Source: Lachnospiraceae bacterium
Lineage (GTDB): Bacteria > Bacillota > Clostridia > Lachnospirales > Lachnospiraceae
Assembly: GCA_022796475.1 (NCBI GenBank)
Contig: JAAWIS010000016.1
Location: 1-50,745, forward strand
Length of the DNA: 50,745 bases
Direction of reading: 5' to 3'
A program made the position numbers and the translations under genes. The notes beneath the pieces were generated by a model. That model saw only the letters and a program-made list of their open reading frames with translations, did not search any database and was not told the DNA's origin. This document shows, in pieces, positions 1-46,396 of this stretch (the stretch's first letter is position 1; each line of letters opens with the position of its first letter).

Positions 1-80
1 CCCTAAGCGGGGCATGGGGGTTACTGTGAAAGCTTGGCGCCCCGTCGCCAAGCTGTGCGGAAACGGGGCCGCGAAAACAG
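1..80. repeat. Structured repeat, cut by the window edge
   Basis: A GC-rich non-coding block ahead of the first gene. It contains a perfect 9-bp inverted repeat, AGCTTGGCG and CGCCAAGCT, separated by 6 bases (about 31-54). Two of its segments, one around GCCAAGCTGTG...CCGCGAA and one around GGCATGGG...TGTGAAAGCT, recur near 37684-37755 in the opposite order, as expected if both sites derive from a tandemly repeated unit. The remaining leader to the start codon at 128 shows no preQ1 riboswitch that I can recognise. Confidence 0.5.
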
Positions 81-127
81 CGTTATAGAGTAACATCTTT
101 CAGCAGATCATAAAAGAGGAGAATATT

Positions 128-1114
128 ATGGAAAAACGAACGGTTATCATAGACTGCGATCCAGGAATTGATGACAGCCTGGCATTAATGCTGGCTTTGG
201 TTTCACCTGAGATTCGGATTGCAGGAATTACGGTAGTAAGCGGAAATGTACCTGCTGATCAAGGCGGTAAAAATGCATTGAAAATTTTAAAATTTATGGG
301 ACAGCTTGATATTCCTGTCTGTCAGGGAGCCATGGTTCCACTGAAACGGGAATACATCAGCGCAAAAGATACCCATGGGGAAGATGGATTAGGAGAGTCA
401 GGAATTCCGGAAATAACAGAGGCGTCAGTTCATCCTGGAGCGGTTGATTTTATCCTGGATACTCTAAAGCGGGAGGAAAAAGTGTCAATAATTGCCATTG
501 GCCCTTTAACGAATCTTGCACTGGCCTTAAAAAAGGAGCCTTTGGCCTTTCAGAATCTGGATATGCTGGTATCTATGGGAGGCTGCTTTAAGAGCTACGG
601 AAACTGCTCTCCAGTAGCAGAATATAATTACTGGTGTGATCCGGACAGCGCAGAATATGTATATCAAAATCTGGGCAGGAAGATTCACATGGTGGGCCTG
701 GATGTAACCAGGGAAATTGTACTTAGTCCCAATATTTTGGAATATATGAAACGGCTGGATCAGAAAGAGTGTCAGAAGAGAGGCGCTTTTGTAGAAGCAA
801 TTACCCGTTTTTATTTTGATTATCACTGGAAATATGAAAATCTTATCGGATGTGTGGTGAATGATCCGCTGGCAGTAGCTTACTTTTTAAATCCGCAGCT
901 TTTAAGTGGATTTGATGCATATGTGGCAGTAGAAACTGGAGGAATTTCCATCGGACAGTCAGTAGTGGATGCCATGGGATTTTGGAAAAGACAGCCAAAT
1001 GCCCATGTCCTGACTCAGGTAGATTCTCTTGGTTTTTGGTCGTTTTTTCTGTCACGGCTTTATGGCATGGAAGAAGAGAGGATTCGCCAGGTATTAAAGG
1101 ATTTGATGATATGA
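128..1114 (+). CDS. queK: Nucleoside hydrolase, probable queuosine hydrolase QueK
   Basis: A 328-aa inosine/uridine-preferring nucleoside hydrolase family protein. These enzymes cleave the N-glycosidic bond of ribonucleosides using a Ca2+ ion held by an N-terminal aspartate cluster. The cluster is visible as DCDPGIDD at residues 9-16, and the C-terminal Asp ligand lies in VVNDPLAV (D246). Length is normal for the family. The start at 128 follows an AGAGGAGA ribosome site. The substrate is inferred from context: the next two genes are an ECF S-component and a small radical-SAM protein, and this trio is the queuine salvage set described in Clostridioides difficile, where QueK releases queuine from queuosine. 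A general purine or pyrimidine nucleosidase cannot be excluded from sequence alone. Family is certain; the queuosine assignment is moderately strong. Confidence 0.85.
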   Translation: MEKRTVIIDCDPGIDDSLALMLALVSPEIRIAGITVVSGNVPADQGGKNALKILKFMGQLDIPVCQGAMVPLKREYISAKDTHGEDGLGESGIPEITEASVHPGAVDFILDTLKREEKVSIIAIGPLTNLALALKKEPLAFQNLDMLVSMGGCFKSYGNCSPVAEYNYWCDPDSAEYVYQNLGRKIHMVGLDVTREIVLSPNILEYMKRLDQKECQKRGAFVEAITRFYFDYHWKYENLIGCVVNDPLAVAYFLNPQLLSGFDAYVAVETGGISIGQSVVDAMGFWKRQPNAHVLTQVDSLGFWSFFLSRLYGMEEERIRQVLKDLMI

Positions 1115-1206
1115 CAGTTATTGCCGGCAAAGGATTTGTAAGGAAAGTGCCGGCTGGATTTGGACAGAAACGATAGATGGAATATGAGAAAAAGGAGATT
1201 TTACAA

Positions 1207-1881
1207 ATGGAGTACAGTAAAAAAGAAAGAATGAGCAGAAAGAAAGAGAAGATAGGGATGAATGGAGTGGAAGAAATCATACAGCCGGAAAAACGGAACA
1301 AAAAAAGGATGCAGTCAAACTGTATGCGGCTGACCATGGCTGCCTTTTGCATTTCCATAAATTTTGCAGGGGCCTATCTTGCCCTTTGCTTAAAGCTTCC
1401 AGTATATTTAGACAGCATTGGAACCATTTTGGCTGGAGCGGTTCTTGGCCCCTGGTATGGAATGGCGGTAGCTTTCGGAAGCGGGCTGCTCAGCGGGGTA
1501 ACTTCCGATATTTACGCTATATATTTTTTGCCTGCCGGAATGATTACTGGGGCTGCCGCCGGTTTTTTGTTTCCTACCCGGCTGTTTGATAAAAAAAGGA
1601 TGCCTCTTGGAACGGCTTTGATTACACTGCCGGGAACAGCAGTCAGCTCGTGCATTTCTGCTTTTTTGTTCCACGGGGTAACCTCTTCTGGTTCTTCTAT
1701 TCTGGTTCAGTTGTTAAGCCAACTGGGATGCAGCATGGTGGTAAGCGCATTTGCAGTGCAGATTATTACGGAATATGCCGACCGTTTCATTTCAGTAGCA
1801 TTTGTGCTGATATTAAGGGCATGTATGACTGCAGATATGAAAGTTCGCTTGAAAGGGGGACGGCCCCATGGAGCGGTATAA
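1207..1881 (+). CDS. qrtT: ECF transporter S-component, probable queuine/queuosine transporter QrtT
   Basis: A small hydrophobic integral membrane protein of about 224 aa with five to six predicted membrane segments after a strongly basic, charged N-terminus of about 35 residues. It resembles substrate-binding S-components of energy-coupling factor transporters, which share a general EcfA/A'/T module encoded elsewhere. No ATPase is present locally. I chose ATG 1207 because AAGGAG lies 9 bases upstream; an earlier in-frame ATG at 1177 has no ribosome site. The last 14 bases overlap the downstream radical-SAM gene, implying translational coupling. Position between nucleoside hydrolase and QueL-like genes suggests queuine or queuosine as ligand (inference). 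Another ECF S-component specificity, such as riboflavin or a nucleobase, is possible by fold. Confidence 0.75.
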   Translation: MEYSKKERMSRKKEKIGMNGVEEIIQPEKRNKKRMQSNCMRLTMAAFCISINFAGAYLALCLKLPVYLDSIGTILAGAVLGPWYGMAVAFGSGLLSGVTSDIYAIYFLPAGMITGAAAGFLFPTRLFDKKRMPLGTALITLPGTAVSSCISAFLFHGVTSSGSSILVQLLSQLGCSMVVSAFAVQIITEYADRFISVAFVLILRACMTADMKVRLKGGRPHGAV

Positions 1882-2557
1882 TGTGATTCGAAATAAGAAC
1901 CAAAGAGAAATTGTCCTTTTGAAATCCTTTCCCTGTGCCTGGGGAAAATGTAAATTTTGTGACTATATTAACGATAATTCCAGAAATGAAGAGGAGATGA
2001 CAGTCTTTAATTCCCGGATTCTTTCCAGAGTAACAGGAGAACTTGGTGTTCTGGAAGTGATCAATTCCGGAAGCTGCTTTGAACTTCCAAAAGCTACACT
2101 GGAAGAGATCCGGAAGATTGTCCACGAGAAAAATATAAAAGAGCTGTTTTTTGAATCACACTGGATGTATCGCCATAAGCTGAATGAAATGCGGGATTTT
2201 ATGGGGATTCCCATCACCTATAAGATTGGGGTGGAAACCTTTGACTATGGGTTTCGGGAACAGTATCTTAATAAACATGCAGACTTTAAAACACCGGATG
2301 AAGTTGCAAAGTTTTTTGATTCACCTTGTATTATGGTTGGAATAAAAGGACAGACCAGAGAAATGATCGACTATGATATCCGCATGGTAAAAAAGCATTT
2401 TCGATTAGGAACTATTAATGTATTTACTAATAATACGACTCAGGTTAAAAAAGATCAGGAGCTGGTGGAATGGTTCATTAAGACCTATGAATGGCTGAAG
2501 GAGGATCCATCCATTGAAGTCCTTTACGAAAATACGGATTTTGGCGTAGGCGACTAA
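1868..2557 (+). CDS. queL: Radical-SAM family protein, probable queuine lyase QueL
   Basis: A 229-aa protein, short for a radical-SAM enzyme. The cysteines expected to bind the [4Fe-4S] cluster lie at C23, C28 and C31 in PCAWGKCKFCDY, giving CX4CX2C rather than the usual CX3CX2C. Downstream, the NSGSCFELP segment and a pattern of alternating strands and helices suit a partial TIM barrel. The context (nucleoside hydrolase, ECF S-component) matches the gut-bacterial pathway in which QueL converts queuine to preQ1, which Tgt can insert into tRNA. ATG 1868 follows a GAAAGGGGG ribosome site and overlaps the preceding gene by 14 bases. Family and pathway call rest on motif plus synteny, not on a database match. 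Confidence 0.78.
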   Translation: MERYNVIRNKNQREIVLLKSFPCAWGKCKFCDYINDNSRNEEEMTVFNSRILSRVTGELGVLEVINSGSCFELPKATLEEIRKIVHEKNIKELFFESHWMYRHKLNEMRDFMGIPITYKIGVETFDYGFREQYLNKHADFKTPDEVAKFFDSPCIMVGIKGQTREMIDYDIRMVKKHFRLGTINVFTNNTTQVKKDQELVEWFIKTYEWLKEDPSIEVLYENTDFGVGD

Positions 2558-2734: not shown

Positions 2735-3160
2735 ATGTCATACACAATTTATGTCAGGATGAAAAAAGTCGGAAAACAGAAAAAGGAAGAGCTTGATCCG
2801 GTTTCGTTTGAACTGGAGAAAAAGCCGGATACAGTGAAAGAATTGATTACAGCTTTGGTAGCGTCCGGAGTCAGGGATTATAATGAGCGGAAGGCTAAGG
2901 GGGAGATTATCCAGTATCTGACCAGAGAAGAGATTGCCACTCAGGCTGAGGCTGGAAAGATTTCCTTTGGAGATTTGAGGGGAAATGATGCAGATTTAAA
3001 AAAAGCCATAGAAAATGGGATTCAATGCTTTGAAGATGGGATTTACCGCATTTTTGCAGGACAAGAAGAAGTGACCAGCTTAGAGCAGAAGTTTTCATGG
3101 GCGGAGGATACGGTATTTACATTTATCCGGCTTGCTATGTTATCCGGCAGGCTTTGGTGA
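2735..3160 (+). CDS. Small protein with ubiquitin-like (beta-grasp) pattern
   Basis: A 141-aa soluble protein I do not recognise as a named family. Its start (YTIYVRMKKVG, then ELDPVSFELEKKPDTVKELI) reads as two strands followed by a helix. Its end (IYRIFAGQEEVTSLEQKF, then EDTVFTFIRLAMLSGR) closely follows the ubiquitin pattern of LIFAGKQLEDGRTLSDYNI...STLHLVLRLRGG. Between them sits an insert of about 55 residues, mostly helical and charged. This suggests a beta-grasp fold with an insertion; no C-terminal di-glycine is present (it ends SGRLW). It lies 22 bases upstream of the giant DUF4132-type gene in the same orientation, so the two products probably act together. Function unknown. Confidence 0.7.
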   Translation: MSYTIYVRMKKVGKQKKEELDPVSFELEKKPDTVKELITALVASGVRDYNERKAKGEIIQYLTREEIATQAEAGKISFGDLRGNDADLKKAIENGIQCFEDGIYRIFAGQEEVTSLEQKFSWAEDTVFTFIRLAMLSGRLW

Positions 3161-3182
3161 TAAGTGGTTTCAGGAGGAGATT

Positions 3183-6100
3183 ATGGCAGAGTTTACATAT
3201 CAGACAAGAAAAAAGTTAACAGAAGAATGGGTAAAACAGGTGAAGAATCAGGAAGGGAATTTATCAGATACAGAGCGTTCTCTTTTGCCCGGAACAAGTT
3301 ACTATTCTGTGCCTGTGAAAGCCTGTGAATGGATGCAGCAGCTTTTGGAAAGCGGAACTTGCAGCAAACTAAGCGATCTGTATAAGACCCAGTTTTCCCG
3401 GCTGACTGCTGTCTGTGTACCCAAAGAGAAGACGGAAGAGTTTTACTATGCATTAGATGAAATGAATCAGTTTCAGATGACGGCAGGATGGTATCGGAGG
3501 AGTATTCGGTCTGCAAGTTACGAACCCTTTGTCCGCGGAAGTATTTTGCTGCTTTGGGGGTATTCCAGGCTGAAATTTTACGGCGGGAACCTGGCAGATG
3601 TGCTGACGGGGAAGGTGGATCCGGAAATTTATGATCATGCAAGGACAGAATACTGGACGTATGACGGGATGCTGGCAGCACAGATTGACCGGGGAGATGA
3701 AAAAACGATCCAGGCAGTAAAAGATATCCTGTTAGGTGAAACGAACACGCTGATGATTAGCTATGAGCTGATCCGCGGGATTGTAAAAAGTAAAAATAAG
3801 GAATTATACCAACTGTTAGGACAGTTTTTGTTGGCAGCACGTCTTCAGGAGGGGGCCAGGCAGGCGGTTTGCGAAACCATGGATGCCGGGAGGCCAGAAG
3901 CATTCCTTAGCTTATTTCAAGTAATCGAAGAGAATAACCTGATCCGGTATTCTTCTGTGAAGCGGGCGGTAAGCACATGGATTGGAATTTTTAATGAAAA
4001 AAGTGTGGATCGGATTACGGAAAAACTGGTCCGGCTTATGGGGCAGTGTCTGCGGGATGAAGCATTTTGTGAAGAGCAGCTTGCCACAAATGATTCAGTT
4101 GCCATAAGCTGCGGGCTGTGGGCAAAAGGTTTTTACGATGCACAAAAGGCAATTGAAGCAGAGCTTATGTTAGTCCGGAATGGAACGAAAAATCAAAAGA
4201 TGACGGCTTCCTATTTTAACCGTTCCCTTCAGGACAGTAAATTAAGGATGCAGGTATCCAGGGAGGTAATTGTATCGTATCCAGATGATCTGGAGTTAGT
4301 AGCCTGTTTCCTTCCCGGATTTTTGGGGGATGCCAGCTATGAGCTGAGTAGCCTTGTGAATGATAAGCATAATGGATATTATTCCCTTCAGGACTGCAAG
4401 GCCAGGGAACCGAAACAGATTCCGGTGGAAAAATGGTTCCGGGACAAGGAGGATGCCAGGCATATTTACGGCCTTCTAAAGGAGCTGCTAAAACAGATCC
4501 CAAAGAAGGGAATCGATTTAAATCCTTGTATTTTTCCGTGGCACAGGGTAGTGATGTATCAGTCTGATGTGGCAGTCAGGCTGTGTCTGATTGCATGGAT
4601 TCTGCAGGATGAAGACTGTCTTGATGAAGCAGCAGACTGGATTCCTTTGGTAGGCCAGGGAGAGGCTTACGGATCCAGGGCAGCAGCGGCAAGAGTTCTG
4701 CTGTACCAGCCAAAATCAAAGGTAAGAAGAGAGCGGTTATTTGAACTGCTGCATAATCCGGAAGAAACTACCATGCGCTCTGCTTTCCGTCTGGTAGAAG
4801 CTCTGAAACTGTCAAAGGAAGACTACGAAAAGATTGAACAGAATCTAAAATATAAGGCAGGCCGCAGCCAAACGCTTTCCCTTTTAAAGCAGCAGAAAAA
4901 GGAGGAGCTGACTGCCTGCATCGGAAGGCTGGTGCAGTCTAAATCAGAAGAATGCCGTATGGGAGCGCTGGATCTGGCCCTCCAGATGAAAAAAGAGGAC
5001 GAAAAAGAGTTTTCCAAATTAAAGCCGCTGCTGTCAGGGCTGACACAGCCGACGGGAAGAGAACAGGTACTGCTGGATGAATTGTTAGGAGAAGAGAGTA
5101 AGGCTCAGAGCATTCTAAACCTGCCGGGATACGGTTTGTATGATGAGAAAAAAGCCTGGATCCTTCCAGATGTTAAGACCAATGAGAAAGAAGCAGAAAA
5201 CCTGTTTGCTTATGGAGAGAAAGAATGTATCCGTATTTTGCATCAGTTAAATAAGCTGATTGAGGAAAAGAAAGACCTGGAGTACAAGACCACATGGGGC
5301 GAAGAGATGCTGTTAGGGACAGATTTAAGGACCAGCAGCCGTATTCATGGGGTGCCGGATGCAGTGCCGTTAGACGAATATCCTTTCCGTCCGCTTTGGG
5401 AGGAATTTTATCAAAAGGAAATCAAAACACCTGAAATGCTGCTGGAGCTGTACCTGTATCAGTGCTGCCGGGCAAAAAGAAACATTTATGAGAAAAATAG
5501 TTCTCTTTACAAAAAGGTATTTGGAAAAGGAACGATAAAAAAAGCTCCATTCCAGGAATTGGTTCAGGGGCTTCGCTATGGGAAACAGGCAGGAACGATC
5601 ATTAACGTATTATTCTGGCAGTATATTCCGAAAGAATTAAAGGTGAAGTGGGGCTTAATCGGGATTGCAAAGCTTTTAACTGTGCTGGATGAGGAAAATT
5701 CCCTGTGTGAATTAAGTGAAAAACGGTGGAATGGTGAAATAGAGGTATATACAATCCGGGCTGCCGATTATCCTGTGTTTAGCGAACTGCGGGGATGGCT
5801 TAACCTGGCAGAAGGAAAGGACTGGAAAATTGCATTCGTTTTACGGTTCCGGCTTCACAAGTATTATGAAACCGTGAAAAAGAAAGAAAAGGCAAAACGC
5901 TATAGCTATTACAACAACAGTTATCTTACACTAACCGATTTTGTGCGCTGCTACACAGAAGGAATTTGGGATAAGGATTTATTTTATAAAGCTGTTTTTA
6001 CTTTCCTGAATCTGGGAAGTATTTTAGGCCCTGTTAGTACTGTGGAACAGAAGGGGGCAGTTGCTTACCGAAAAGCCAGAGTAGGCGACTTAAGTGCATT

Positions 6101-8378
6101 TTTTGGGCATCAGGTGATCAAGCCTGTAGACGGAAAATATCGGTTTGATACCATTGGCAAAGAGATTCCGGCTATGGATTTTGCACATGAACTATATAGG
6201 GAAGTGATTCCGAAAGTACTGACAGTAGAGTTAAAGCGGGGAGAACAGGCTACGCCTTTTTCAGCTTTTATCCCAAATATCCAGGTGATCTATGGAATTG
6301 ACTACATGATTCAAATTTTAACGGCTCTGGGAAAAGATACTCTGCAAAGGGGCTATTCCTATCGTCTTAGCCAGACCGAGCGAAAAGTTGTGCTCAGCCA
6401 TCTGCTGGAAGTTTGCCATCCAAAGCCGGAAGAAGGGGCTAAAGATCTGAAGAAGGCGCTAAAAGGAACGGATATTACAAAGAAACGGCTGGTTGAGCTG
6501 GCTATGTACGCCCAGCAGTGGATTCCAATTGTGGAGGAATACCTTGCTCTTCCAGGTTTCCAAAGCGGCTGCTATTACTTTATGGCGCATACCAGCGAGA
6601 GTCTGGATGAATATACCGCTGCTATGGTGGCAAAATATACCCCTCTTTCTCCGGAAGAACTTCGGGACGGGGCCTTTGATTTGAATTGGTTTTTTGAAGC
6701 TTATCATAAGCTGGGAGAAAAGGAATTTAAGCTTTTGTATGATGCAGCAAAATATTCTTCCGGTGGAACGGCTCACACCAGGGCAAGGAAGTATGCGGAT
6801 GCAGCCCTTGGAAAGGTGGGGAAGGAAGAACTGATTTTAGAGATAGAAGAGAAACGGAACAAAGATCGATTGATGAGCCTTGGCCTTCTTCCCCTTGATG
6901 CTGAAAAGGGAAAACGGGAAGCAGACTTATTGGATCGCTACCAGTTTATTCAGAAGTTTAAGAAGGAAAGCCGGAATTTCGGCGCTCAAAGACGGGCCAG
7001 CGAAGGCCATGCAGTGGATCTGGCTCTCAGAAATTTAAGCGTTAACGCAGGTTTTACTGATGTAACCAGGCTGGTTTTGAGGATGGAAACAAAGCTGGTG
7101 GAATCCATGGAAGGGTATTTTGAATGGGCAGCATTAGATCCGGGGGAAGGAAAACCGGAAGAAGAGATTCAGCTTCGGATTTATGTGGATGAAACCGGAA
7201 AAAGTACGCTTCAATGCCAAAAGGGCGAAAAGCTTTTAAAATCCATTCCAACTAAGTACAAAAAGCATGAAACTATCCTGGCATACCAGGAGATGAATAA
7301 AAAATTAAAGGAACAGTACAGACGCACCAGACAGATGATGGAACAGGCTATGGAAGACAGGACATTCTTTGAAGTTTGGGAATTTTTGGAACTTATGAAA
7401 AATCCTGTTGTGCGTCCTATCGTAGAACCCCTGGTGGTAAAATTAGAAAAGGGCAGAAGCAAAGCAGGAAAAACCAAAGATTATGGGGAAATGTCCGGCG
7501 AGGGAAGGATTGGCTTTTTAACAGAATCCGGCTTATGCGGCTGGTCTGGGAAAACAGTGAAGGTAAAGCCTAATGATAAGATTTTGATTGCCCATCCGTA
7601 TGATCTGTATGAAGAAGGTCATTGGCATGATTACCAGAAACTTCTGTTTGAGAAAAAGATGAAGCAGCCATTTAAGCAGGTATTCCGTGAGCTGTATGTA
7701 AAGCTGTCCGAAGAGCTGGAAAAAGAGCATTCCATGATGTTTTCCGGAAACCAAATCCAGCCTCAGAAAACAGTAGGGGCTTTGAGAAGCCGCCGATGGG
7801 TAGCAGACTATGAGGACGGCCTTCAAAAGGTTTATTACAAGGAAAACATTGTGGCTCAGATTTACGCTTTGGCAGACTGGTTCTCACCAAGTGATATTGA
7901 AGCGCCCACCTTGGAATGGGTTGTATTTACCGATCGGAAAACCTTCCGTCCTTTACCGATTAAGGAGATTCCGGATATTATCTACAGCGAGGTAATGCGG
8001 GATGTGGATCTAGCGGTCAGTGTGGCACATGCAGGAGGCGTTGATCCGGAAACCAGCCATTCTACAGTAGAAATGCGGAAAGCCATTGTGGAATGCAATC
8101 TGGAACTGTTCCAGGTAAAAAATGTAAAGCTGGAAGGAAATCATGCAGTGATCACTGGAAAATTGGGACAGTATACGGTGCATTTAGGAAGCGGGATTGT
8201 GCATCAGATGGGAAATGCAATGCTGGCAGTACTCCCTGTACATTCCCAGCATCGGGGAAGGATCTTTTTGCCTTTTGTTGATGATGATCCTAAGACGGCA
8301 GAAATTATGTCAAAGATTCTGCTGTTTGCAGAAGATACAAAAATCAAGGATCCCAGTATTTTAACTCAAATCCGGTAA
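3183..8378 (+). CDS. Giant DUF4132-type protein, 1731 aa
   Basis: A very large cytoplasmic protein with no signal peptide or membrane segment. It is mostly alpha-helical with repeat-like stretches in the first 1000 residues. The last 250 residues (for example YSEVMRDVDLAVSVAHAGG and the segment ending PKTAEIMSKILLFAEDTKI) resemble the DUF4132/MolR-type C-terminal domain, which has no settled function. I chose ATG 3183 because CAGGAGGAGA lies directly upstream; an earlier in-frame ATG at 3132 lies inside the preceding gene and lacks a ribosome site. It follows the ubiquitin-like small protein by 22 bases. Large DUF4132 proteins have been noted beside MoxR/vWA-type ATPase modules in other bacteria; none is seen here. 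Role unknown. Confidence 0.75.
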   Translation: MAEFTYQTRKKLTEEWVKQVKNQEGNLSDTERSLLPGTSYYSVPVKACEWMQQLLESGTCSKLSDLYKTQFSRLTAVCVPKEKTEEFYYALDEMNQFQMTAGWYRRSIRSASYEPFVRGSILLLWGYSRLKFYGGNLADVLTGKVDPEIYDHARTEYWTYDGMLAAQIDRGDEKTIQAVKDILLGETNTLMISYELIRGIVKSKNKELYQLLGQFLLAARLQEGARQAVCETMDAGRPEAFLSLFQVIEENNLIRYSSVKRAVSTWIGIFNEKSVDRITEKLVRLMGQCLRDEAFCEEQLATNDSVAISCGLWAKGFYDAQKAIEAELMLVRNGTKNQKMTASYFNRSLQDSKLRMQVSREVIVSYPDDLELVACFLPGFLGDASYELSSLVNDKHNGYYSLQDCKAREPKQIPVEKWFRDKEDARHIYGLLKELLKQIPKKGIDLNPCIFPWHRVVMYQSDVAVRLCLIAWILQDEDCLDEAADWIPLVGQGEAYGSRAAAARVLLYQPKSKVRRERLFELLHNPEETTMRSAFRLVEALKLSKEDYEKIEQNLKYKAGRSQTLSLLKQQKKEELTACIGRLVQSKSEECRMGALDLALQMKKEDEKEFSKLKPLLSGLTQPTGREQVLLDELLGEESKAQSILNLPGYGLYDEKKAWILPDVKTNEKEAENLFAYGEKECIRILHQLNKLIEEKKDLEYKTTWGEEMLLGTDLRTSSRIHGVPDAVPLDEYPFRPLWEEFYQKEIKTPEMLLELYLYQCCRAKRNIYEKNSSLYKKVFGKGTIKKAPFQELVQGLRYGKQAGTIINVLFWQYIPKELKVKWGLIGIAKLLTVLDEENSLCELSEKRWNGEIEVYTIRAADYPVFSELRGWLNLAEGKDWKIAFVLRFRLHKYYETVKKKEKAKRYSYYNNSYLTLTDFVRCYTEGIWDKDLFYKAVFTFLNLGSILGPVSTVEQKGAVAYRKARVGDLSAFFGHQVIKPVDGKYRFDTIGKEIPAMDFAHELYREVIPKVLTVELKRGEQATPFSAFIPNIQVIYGIDYMIQILTALGKDTLQRGYSYRLSQTERKVVLSHLLEVCHPKPEEGAKDLKKALKGTDITKKRLVELAMYAQQWIPIVEEYLALPGFQSGCYYFMAHTSESLDEYTAAMVAKYTPLSPEELRDGAFDLNWFFEAYHKLGEKEFKLLYDAAKYSSGGTAHTRARKYADAALGKVGKEELILEIEEKRNKDRLMSLGLLPLDAEKGKREADLLDRYQFIQKFKKESRNFGAQRRASEGHAVDLALRNLSVNAGFTDVTRLVLRMETKLVESMEGYFEWAALDPGEGKPEEEIQLRIYVDETGKSTLQCQKGEKLLKSIPTKYKKHETILAYQEMNKKLKEQYRRTRQMMEQAMEDRTFFEVWEFLELMKNPVVRPIVEPLVVKLEKGRSKAGKTKDYGEMSGEGRIGFLTESGLCGWSGKTVKVKPNDKILIAHPYDLYEEGHWHDYQKLLFEKKMKQPFKQVFRELYVKLSEELEKEHSMMFSGNQIQPQKTVGALRSRRWVADYEDGLQKVYYKENIVAQIYALADWFSPSDIEAPTLEWVVFTDRKTFRPLPIKEIPDIIYSEVMRDVDLAVSVAHAGGVDPETSHSTVEMRKAIVECNLELFQVKNVKLEGNHAVITGKLGQYTVHLGSGIVHQMGNAMLAVLPVHSQHRGRIFLPFVDDDPKTAEIMSKILLFAEDTKIKDPSILTQIR

Positions 8379-11912: not shown

Positions 11913-12109
11913 ATGATGTTGGGGTCAAAAGGTGTTTTGCCCCCTCTGATACCGGATTGCTCCGTACTTTGTACTCCCGCAATCCTCAAAAACATTCAAA
12001 ATCCGCCCTAATCGGGCTGCTTTTTCATGTTTTTGGCGGATCCCAAGTTCAAAAATCCTCTTGCAAGCAAGCTTGCATCGGATTTTAGACCTTTTGACCC
12101 TGGTATCAT
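11913..12109 (-). mobile_element. MITE-like repeat family 1, full copy
   Basis: A 197-bp non-coding element. Its ends, ATGATGTTGGGGTCAAAAGG and CCTTTTGACCCTGGTATCAT, form imperfect terminal inverted repeats of about 20 bp. Its reverse complement aligns nearly throughout with 39596-39795. Both copies carry internal hairpins: GGATTGC...GTAC/GTAC...GCAATCC, and an A-rich AAAAACATG/CATGTTTTT stem. No open reading frame of note. It fills most of the gap between the zinc-ribbon gene and the ABC exporter. Confidence 0.8.
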
Positions 12110-39595: not shown

Positions 39596-39795
39596 ATGAT
39601 ACCAGGGGCAAAAGGTCTAAAATCCGGTGCAAGTCTGCTTGCAGGAGGATTTTGATCTTGGAACCTGCCAAAAACATGTAAAAGCAGCCCGTTCAGGGCA
39701 GATTTTGAATGTTTTTGAGGATTGCGGGAGTACAAACAAAGTACGGAGCAATCCGGTATCAGAGGGGGAAAAAGACCTTATGACCCCAATATCAT
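39596..39795 (+). mobile_element. MITE-like repeat family 1, full copy
   Basis: A 200-bp non-coding element with imperfect terminal inverted repeats: ATGATACCAGGGGCAAAAGG at the left and, as reverse complement, ATGATATTGGGGTCATAAGG at the right. It matches the inverse of 11913-12109 nearly end to end, including internal GGATTGC...GCAATCC and AAAAACATG stems. Located upstream of mgtE. Confidence 0.85.
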
Positions 39796-46121: not shown

Positions 46122-46158
46122 GCTGCAGTATGTATATCTGACATACTGCAGCTTTTTT
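46122..46158 (+). terminator. Strong terminator
   Basis: GCTGCAGTATGT (46122-46133) and ACATACTGCAGC (46141-46152) form a perfect 12-bp stem with a 7-base loop, followed by six T. Confidence 0.93.
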
Positions 46159-46160
46159 GC

Positions 46161-46286
46161 TTTATAGGAACTTGCGCCCTATAAAGCAAAACCCTCCGGG
46201 GGATGCGCACTTCGCGCTTAAGGAAACTGTCTGCTGACGCAGACGCGCTCCGGCGAGGGAGTCCGGCAAGACGGACTCTTTGTTCC
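46161..46286 (+). repeat. Dispersed repeat family 2, copy 3 (tandem unit 1)
   Basis: TTTATAGGAACTTGCGCCCT start, GTCTGC/GCAGAC hairpin, terminal GAGTCCG/CGGACTC stem plus TTTGTT. First of two tandem units with a 126-bp period. Confidence 0.9.
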
Positions 46287-46396
46287 TTTATAGGAACTTG
46301 CGCCCTATAAAGCAAAACCCTCTGGGGGATGCCCGCTTCGCGCTTAAGGAAACTGTCTGCTGACGCAGACGCGCTCCGGCGAGGGAGTCCGGCAAA
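46287..46396 (+). repeat. Dispersed repeat family 2, copy 4 (tandem unit 2)
   Basis: Nearly identical to the preceding unit but stops within the terminal stem: after GAGTCCGGCAAA the right arm is missing. It ends only a few bases from the stop codon of the minus-strand ABC gene. Confidence 0.88.

Follow-up and report, generated by a model that had tools for sequence, protein, structure and literature searches.

The first genes of the 50,745-nucleotide stretch of Lachnospiraceae DNA analysed here (the window) very probably form a three-gene operon for the indirect salvage of queuosine (Q) or queuine, and a preQ1-I riboswitch probably lies upstream of it. The genes follow one another on the plus strand: queK (128-1114, 328 residues), for a predicted queuosine nucleoside hydrolase of the IUNH family; qrtT (1177-1881, 234 residues as listed, start uncertain), for a putative S-component of an ECF transporter; and queL (1868-2557, 229 residues), for a putative radical-SAM queuine lyase. 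These frames, read from the sequence, agree with the initial annotation, which had described three overlapping or adjacent plus-strand genes. queK and qrtT are 62 nucleotides apart, while qrtT and queL overlap by 14. Probable ribosome-binding sites can be read directly on the same strand before queK (AGAGGAG, 115-121) and before queL (AAGGGGG, 1853-1859, within the end of qrtT).

The order queK-qrtT-queL, all on one strand, is present in 25 of 28 loci collected from relatives (L041-L068), in six of seven loci of the same genus (L104-L110) and in 16 of 17 of the same family (L012-L028). These sets overlap in part, and two short matches (L069 and L070) were excluded from every locus count. The arrangement is not due to chance, and it extends to loci labelled Clostridiaceae and Oscillospiraceae. 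Among the exceptions, L047 and L014 start at a contig end, 46 nucleotides 5' of queL; the L110 cassette has decayed; and in L055 and L068 queL is accompanied by neither queK nor qrtT. Within the genus, eight of 11 genomes have a queL match, counting the decayed one, and three have none.

The only preQ1-I riboswitch in the genome (RF00522, 53.5 bits against a cut-off of 39) is located on another contig, C17, at 168-212 of the minus strand and near the contig end; the initial annotation did not see it for that reason. On the same strand, a promoter-like TTGAAA-17-TATACT lies upstream of the aptamer (C17:338-310) and a terminator-like site of 11 pairs lies downstream (C17:130-105, fold z-score −2.81). 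The 450-nucleotide stretch of C17 contains two promoter-like and five terminator-like sites, where shuffled sequences lead one to expect 0.5 of each. The aptamer ends in CTAAGGA, exactly complementary to TCCTTAG of the terminator stem, and the riboswitch is most likely an off-switch: CTAAGGA would pair with TCCTTAG, and binding of the ligand would free the terminator, turning transcription off when preQ1 is plentiful. This match, or an eight-nucleotide form of it, recurs in six of 29 loci, a count not set against a chance expectation. In other lineages control seems to run through different platforms or to act on translation. In seven loci (L044, L045, L046, L048, L051, L052 and L112) no stretch of five T follows the aptamer within 160 nucleotides; in L044 the aptamer tail overlaps, by eye, the likely ribosome-binding site of queK, which suggests translational control.

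A preQ1-I aptamer above the Rfam cut-off precedes queK in 21 of the 24 loci scanned among those of L041-L068 with all three genes. Of the remaining three, L050 scores 36.1 bits against 39, and L056 and L057 are truncated where their contigs begin; L061, the 25th locus of this kind, starts inside queK and falls outside this count. The aptamer is also present in all ten loci L104-L113, the decayed L110 included, a set that partly overlaps the former (L104 with L049, L111 with L043).

Contig C38 begins with the window, so that 127 nucleotides precede queK up to the contig end. The aptamer on C17 would lie directly upstream of them, to judge from gene order in a related genome and from a repeat shared by the two contig ends. 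On C17 the neighbour of the aptamer is a GNAT gene, and genome G007 of the same genus (L049/L104) has, in order, GNAT, aptamer, queK, qrtT, queL and then relatives of window 2735-3160 and 3132-8378; the next gene outward on C17 also resembles, by eye, its counterpart in L104. The repeat has a 149-bp unit. The window opens with the 3' end of one copy (1-21, plus strand, unit positions 129-149; blastn identity 100% over 21 nucleotides), followed in the queK leader by the start of the next (22-75, plus strand, unit positions 1-54; 98% over 54 nucleotides), and window 21-75 is identical to C17:99-45 of the minus strand. On C17 a copy breaks off at unit position 98, where the contig ends; the window resumes at position 129 in the same orientation, from which a gap of 30 nucleotides plus a multiple of 149 is predicted between the contigs.

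That the operon is real but is not under preQ1-I control in this genome, C17 not being upstream of C38, is very unlikely, although the assembly does not join the two contigs and the link relies on synteny with one genome and on a repeat of many sites: window 1-115 has 67 blastn matches in the genome, its own included. Against it stand the uniqueness of the aptamer in the genome, the GNAT-aptamer-queK-qrtT-queL order of G007 with the resemblance of the next C17 gene, and the manner in which the repeat breaks off on one contig and resumes on the other. The repeat is dispersed and intergenic, folds into hairpins and occurs as one to three copies per site (sites include L085-L103); the window copy has no Rfam match at gathering score, and no match to the repeat was found across 404 kb of relatives' loci. 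It flanks the riboswitch on both sides (C17:1-98 and 232-300, in L084), and the copy at C17:300-232 of the minus strand, between the promoter-like site and the aptamer, is diverged (75%). The leader itself (window 1-127) was considered as a folded riboswitch and rejected: its fold z-score is −0.83, it consists mostly of the repeat with 67 matches, and it has no Rfam match at gathering score. A match to Clostridium-PBP there is at chance level (E 4.6, 23.5 bits against 94.4), and the other sub-threshold Rfam matches were likewise set aside as chance.

The queK product scores 306.7 bits against IU_nuc_hydro (PF01156, cut-off 34.2), and stays below the cut-offs of the profiles for RihA, RihC, UriH and the ribosylpyrimidine nucleosidase NF007417. 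Aspartates 11, 15, 16 and 246, which we take to be metal ligands, are conserved. QueK proteins linked to the cassette are 48-71% identical to that of the window, whereas other IUNHs of the genus reach at most 38% (ten aligned of 11; L136 gave no match). In a tree, a single branch separates 33 cassette rows, the window included, from ten other rows, with support of 82/93, under the mark of 95; the root is for drawing only, and long branches make fine placement unsure. L136 and a sequence with a split frame (L058) were dropped from it. By analogy with the work on C. difficile, QueK would be a queuosine hydrolase, converting Q to queuine.

The qrtT product resembles ECF S-components, at scores under curated thresholds. 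In the alignment A3 all 17 sequences match PF12822 at E ≤0.01 and all 17 match NF045596 (the CD3073-type ECF S family); the window protein itself scores 23.3 bits against a PF12822 cut-off of 30.7 and 77.5 bits against an NF045596 cut-off of 180. Seven of 24 rows were left out of A3, three of them for stops (L045, L059 and L065) and further L050, L053, L064 and L067. The S-component profile matches a FolT S-component structure with an E-value of 8e-5. PMC11130926 assigns QrtT to PF12822, the family matched by the A3 sequences; the window protein differs from the known QueT/QrtT S-components in lying under both cut-offs, and no family named QueT is among its profile matches. Its amino-terminus is uncertain: in 19 of the 25 three-gene loci of L041-L068 the similarity does not begin before residue 32, and Met45 is one alternative start. 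From its neighbour genes and the riboswitch, the S-component may import Q, queuine or preQ1.

It might be supposed that the hydrolase and the S-component have a part in general nucleoside or vitamin uptake and are linked to queL by position only, both being members of broad families, with the S-component under its curated cut-offs and three further IUNHs in the same genome. This is highly improbable: order and strand of the two genes are conserved with queL, into loci labelled Clostridiaceae and Oscillospiraceae; on the tree, a branch separates the cassette QueK proteins from the remaining IUNHs of the genus; a preQ1-I riboswitch lies 5' of the cassette in relatives and probably here; and PMC11477304 describes such an operon in C. 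difficile, assigning these roles to its products.

For the queL product the only PDB match is queuine lyase 6P78, over the full length (residues 1-229) with an E-value of 3.8e-73 and 51% identity. The CX4CX2C spacing of its cysteines, pointed out in the initial annotation, is made up of Cys23, Cys28 and Cys31; 6P78 has the same spacing, and in alignment A1, whose 36 sequences include that of the window, these three are among 43 invariant columns. CX4CX2C is therefore the normal motif of the queL family. The two proteins also share TDFGVGD at the carboxy-terminus; the difference between them lies in the 51% identity. By analogy with 6P78 and the C. difficile work, QueL would be a queuine lyase, converting queuine to preQ1. 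The best NCBIfam match is to RaSEA (TIGR01210), at 44.9 bits far under the cut-off of 212, and Radical_SAM scores 13.7 bits against 29.5; a better score to an unrelated radical-SAM or nucleosidase family had been named as evidence against the assignment, and no unrelated family exceeds its cut-off. An archaeosine-type (RaSEA-like) or different function for QueL, as the top NCBIfam match might suggest, is most improbable, given the low RaSEA score, the full-length likeness to 6P78, the linkage of queK to queL and a genome without a QueD or QueF match.

The initial annotation had suggested a search of the genome for tgt and queA in the absence of queCDEF. Tgt (478.6 bits) and QueA (498.7 bits) are both found above equivalog cut-offs, and the epoxyqueuosine reductase QueH is present (239.7 bits). 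The search of the genome, which is 95.6% complete, gave no match to QueD or QueF; any single absence could therefore be an assembly gap. Two QueC matches were rejected, being MnmA and GuaA. The examination of QueD, QueF and QueC in the assembly thus did not reveal the complete de novo pathway that would have spoken against salvage.

In a survey of the family, 33 of 299 genomes have a QueL-like match: 18 of the window's branch (at least 65% identity) and 15 of a diverged branch, whose proteins share 40-44% identity with that of the window. A strong QueF is present in 69 of the 299, coinciding with QueL in none of the 18 and one of the 15. The exclusion of QueL and QueF has a Fisher p of 0.0018 for both branches and 0.017 for the window branch alone. 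Neither value is corrected for kinship, and each presupposes that the two draws were of the same 299 genomes, as agreement in handles and sizes indicates, 111 QueF-negative ones being unlisted. QueF-family matches occur in 168 genomes, 69 strong and 99 weak, and the weak ones were not counted as QueF, although the curated cut-off is passed by 119 genomes (the 69 strong and 50 weak). None of the weak matches listed exceeds 35.4 bits, over about 58 residues; they may represent another T-fold protein such as FolE. One genome, G027, has a strong QueF together with a QueL fusion, which argues against simple exclusion.

Taken as a pathway, the S-component, with a putative shared ECF module, would import Q, queuine or preQ1; QueK would release queuine from Q; the radical-SAM enzyme QueL would turn queuine into preQ1; and bacterial Tgt would insert preQ1 into tRNA, where QueA and QueH would complete Q. 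The correspondence with a published gut-bacterial salvage pathway, noted in the initial annotation, is borne out: the available text of PMC11477304 describes a C. difficile operon of preQ1-I riboswitch, queK, qrtT and queL, in the same order and with roles for the three products, and cites Yuan et al. 2019 (PNAS). The recycling of a host-shared micronutrient, also proposed in the initial annotation, is an ecological reading that reaches further than these data. By the C. difficile description, the likeness comprises the three gene roles, their order, the lack of de novo preQ1 synthesis and a preQ1-I riboswitch, probably upstream here too; the present organism is a different one, and in it copies of the repeat flank the riboswitch. 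According to passages of PMC11130926, most species of the large intestine lack queDECF and have QueKL; the known work also includes PMC10723273 and PMC7694415. Since the C. difficile operon is already published, the window cassette is one more ordinary case of a pathway already described, to which it contributes documented members; its probable riboswitch was traced on a different contig of this genome.

The diverged QueL proteins occupy a different setting. Neither queK nor qrtT was found within about 1.5 kb of the gene in 12 loci (L029-L040), nor within about 5 kb in the regions of ten genomes of this branch (L114-L123), and a preQ1-I match was found in none of these ten longer loci. Instead, a gene for QPTR (PF02592, confirmed with Pfam for two) adjoins it in 11 of the 12 loci L029-L040, L040 being the exception, and in L123, that is, in 12 of 13 genomes; the other two of the 15 genomes (G277 and G145) are outside this count. 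In genome G027 (L114:4230-5618), a metallo-beta-lactamase-fold domain is fused to the QueL-like protein (462 residues), next to QPTR. None of the 33 genomes has both QueL branches, each having one match.

Judged by their sequences, the diverged proteins may also be queuine lyases. We suggest tentatively, with slightly less than even confidence, that the family has two mutually exclusive modules: the queK-qrtT-queL operon with its riboswitch, and a QPTR-QueL pair without queK that would be a queuine-only route, with one metallo-beta-lactamase-fold fusion and QPTR as the queuine importer. If the QPTR-linked QueL is a true queuine lyase, 15 of 299 family genomes would have another way of salvaging queuine, under a different regulation, and this would bear on the sharing of the micronutrient between the host and its gut bacteria. 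The titles and passages at hand contain no description of the QueL-QPTR pairing, which Yuan et al. 2019 may describe. In one of the ten longer loci a TwoAYGGAY RNA (RF01731; L118:5064-5228) lies directly upstream of the diverged queL.

Some further features were observed. The decayed locus of the same-genus genome G009 (L110:5802-8342) retains the preQ1-I aptamer and only pieces of qrtT and queL, queK being gone; a retron-type reverse transcriptase adjoins these remnants and scores 197 bits against the retron St85 family model, with a cut-off of 235. Downstream of the cassette, window 3132-8378 encodes a very large protein (1726 residues, scanned from 3198) with DUF5724, DUF4132 and DUF7737, of which a relative was found 3' of the cassette in G007. 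The window contains two Clostridiales-1 RNAs (RF01699), at 11947-12108 on the minus strand and 39597-39761 on the plus strand, with 140.5 and 108.2 bits, respectively. Towards its end, at 46152-46395, is a tandem repeat of a 126-bp unit in 1.9 copies that are 95% alike.
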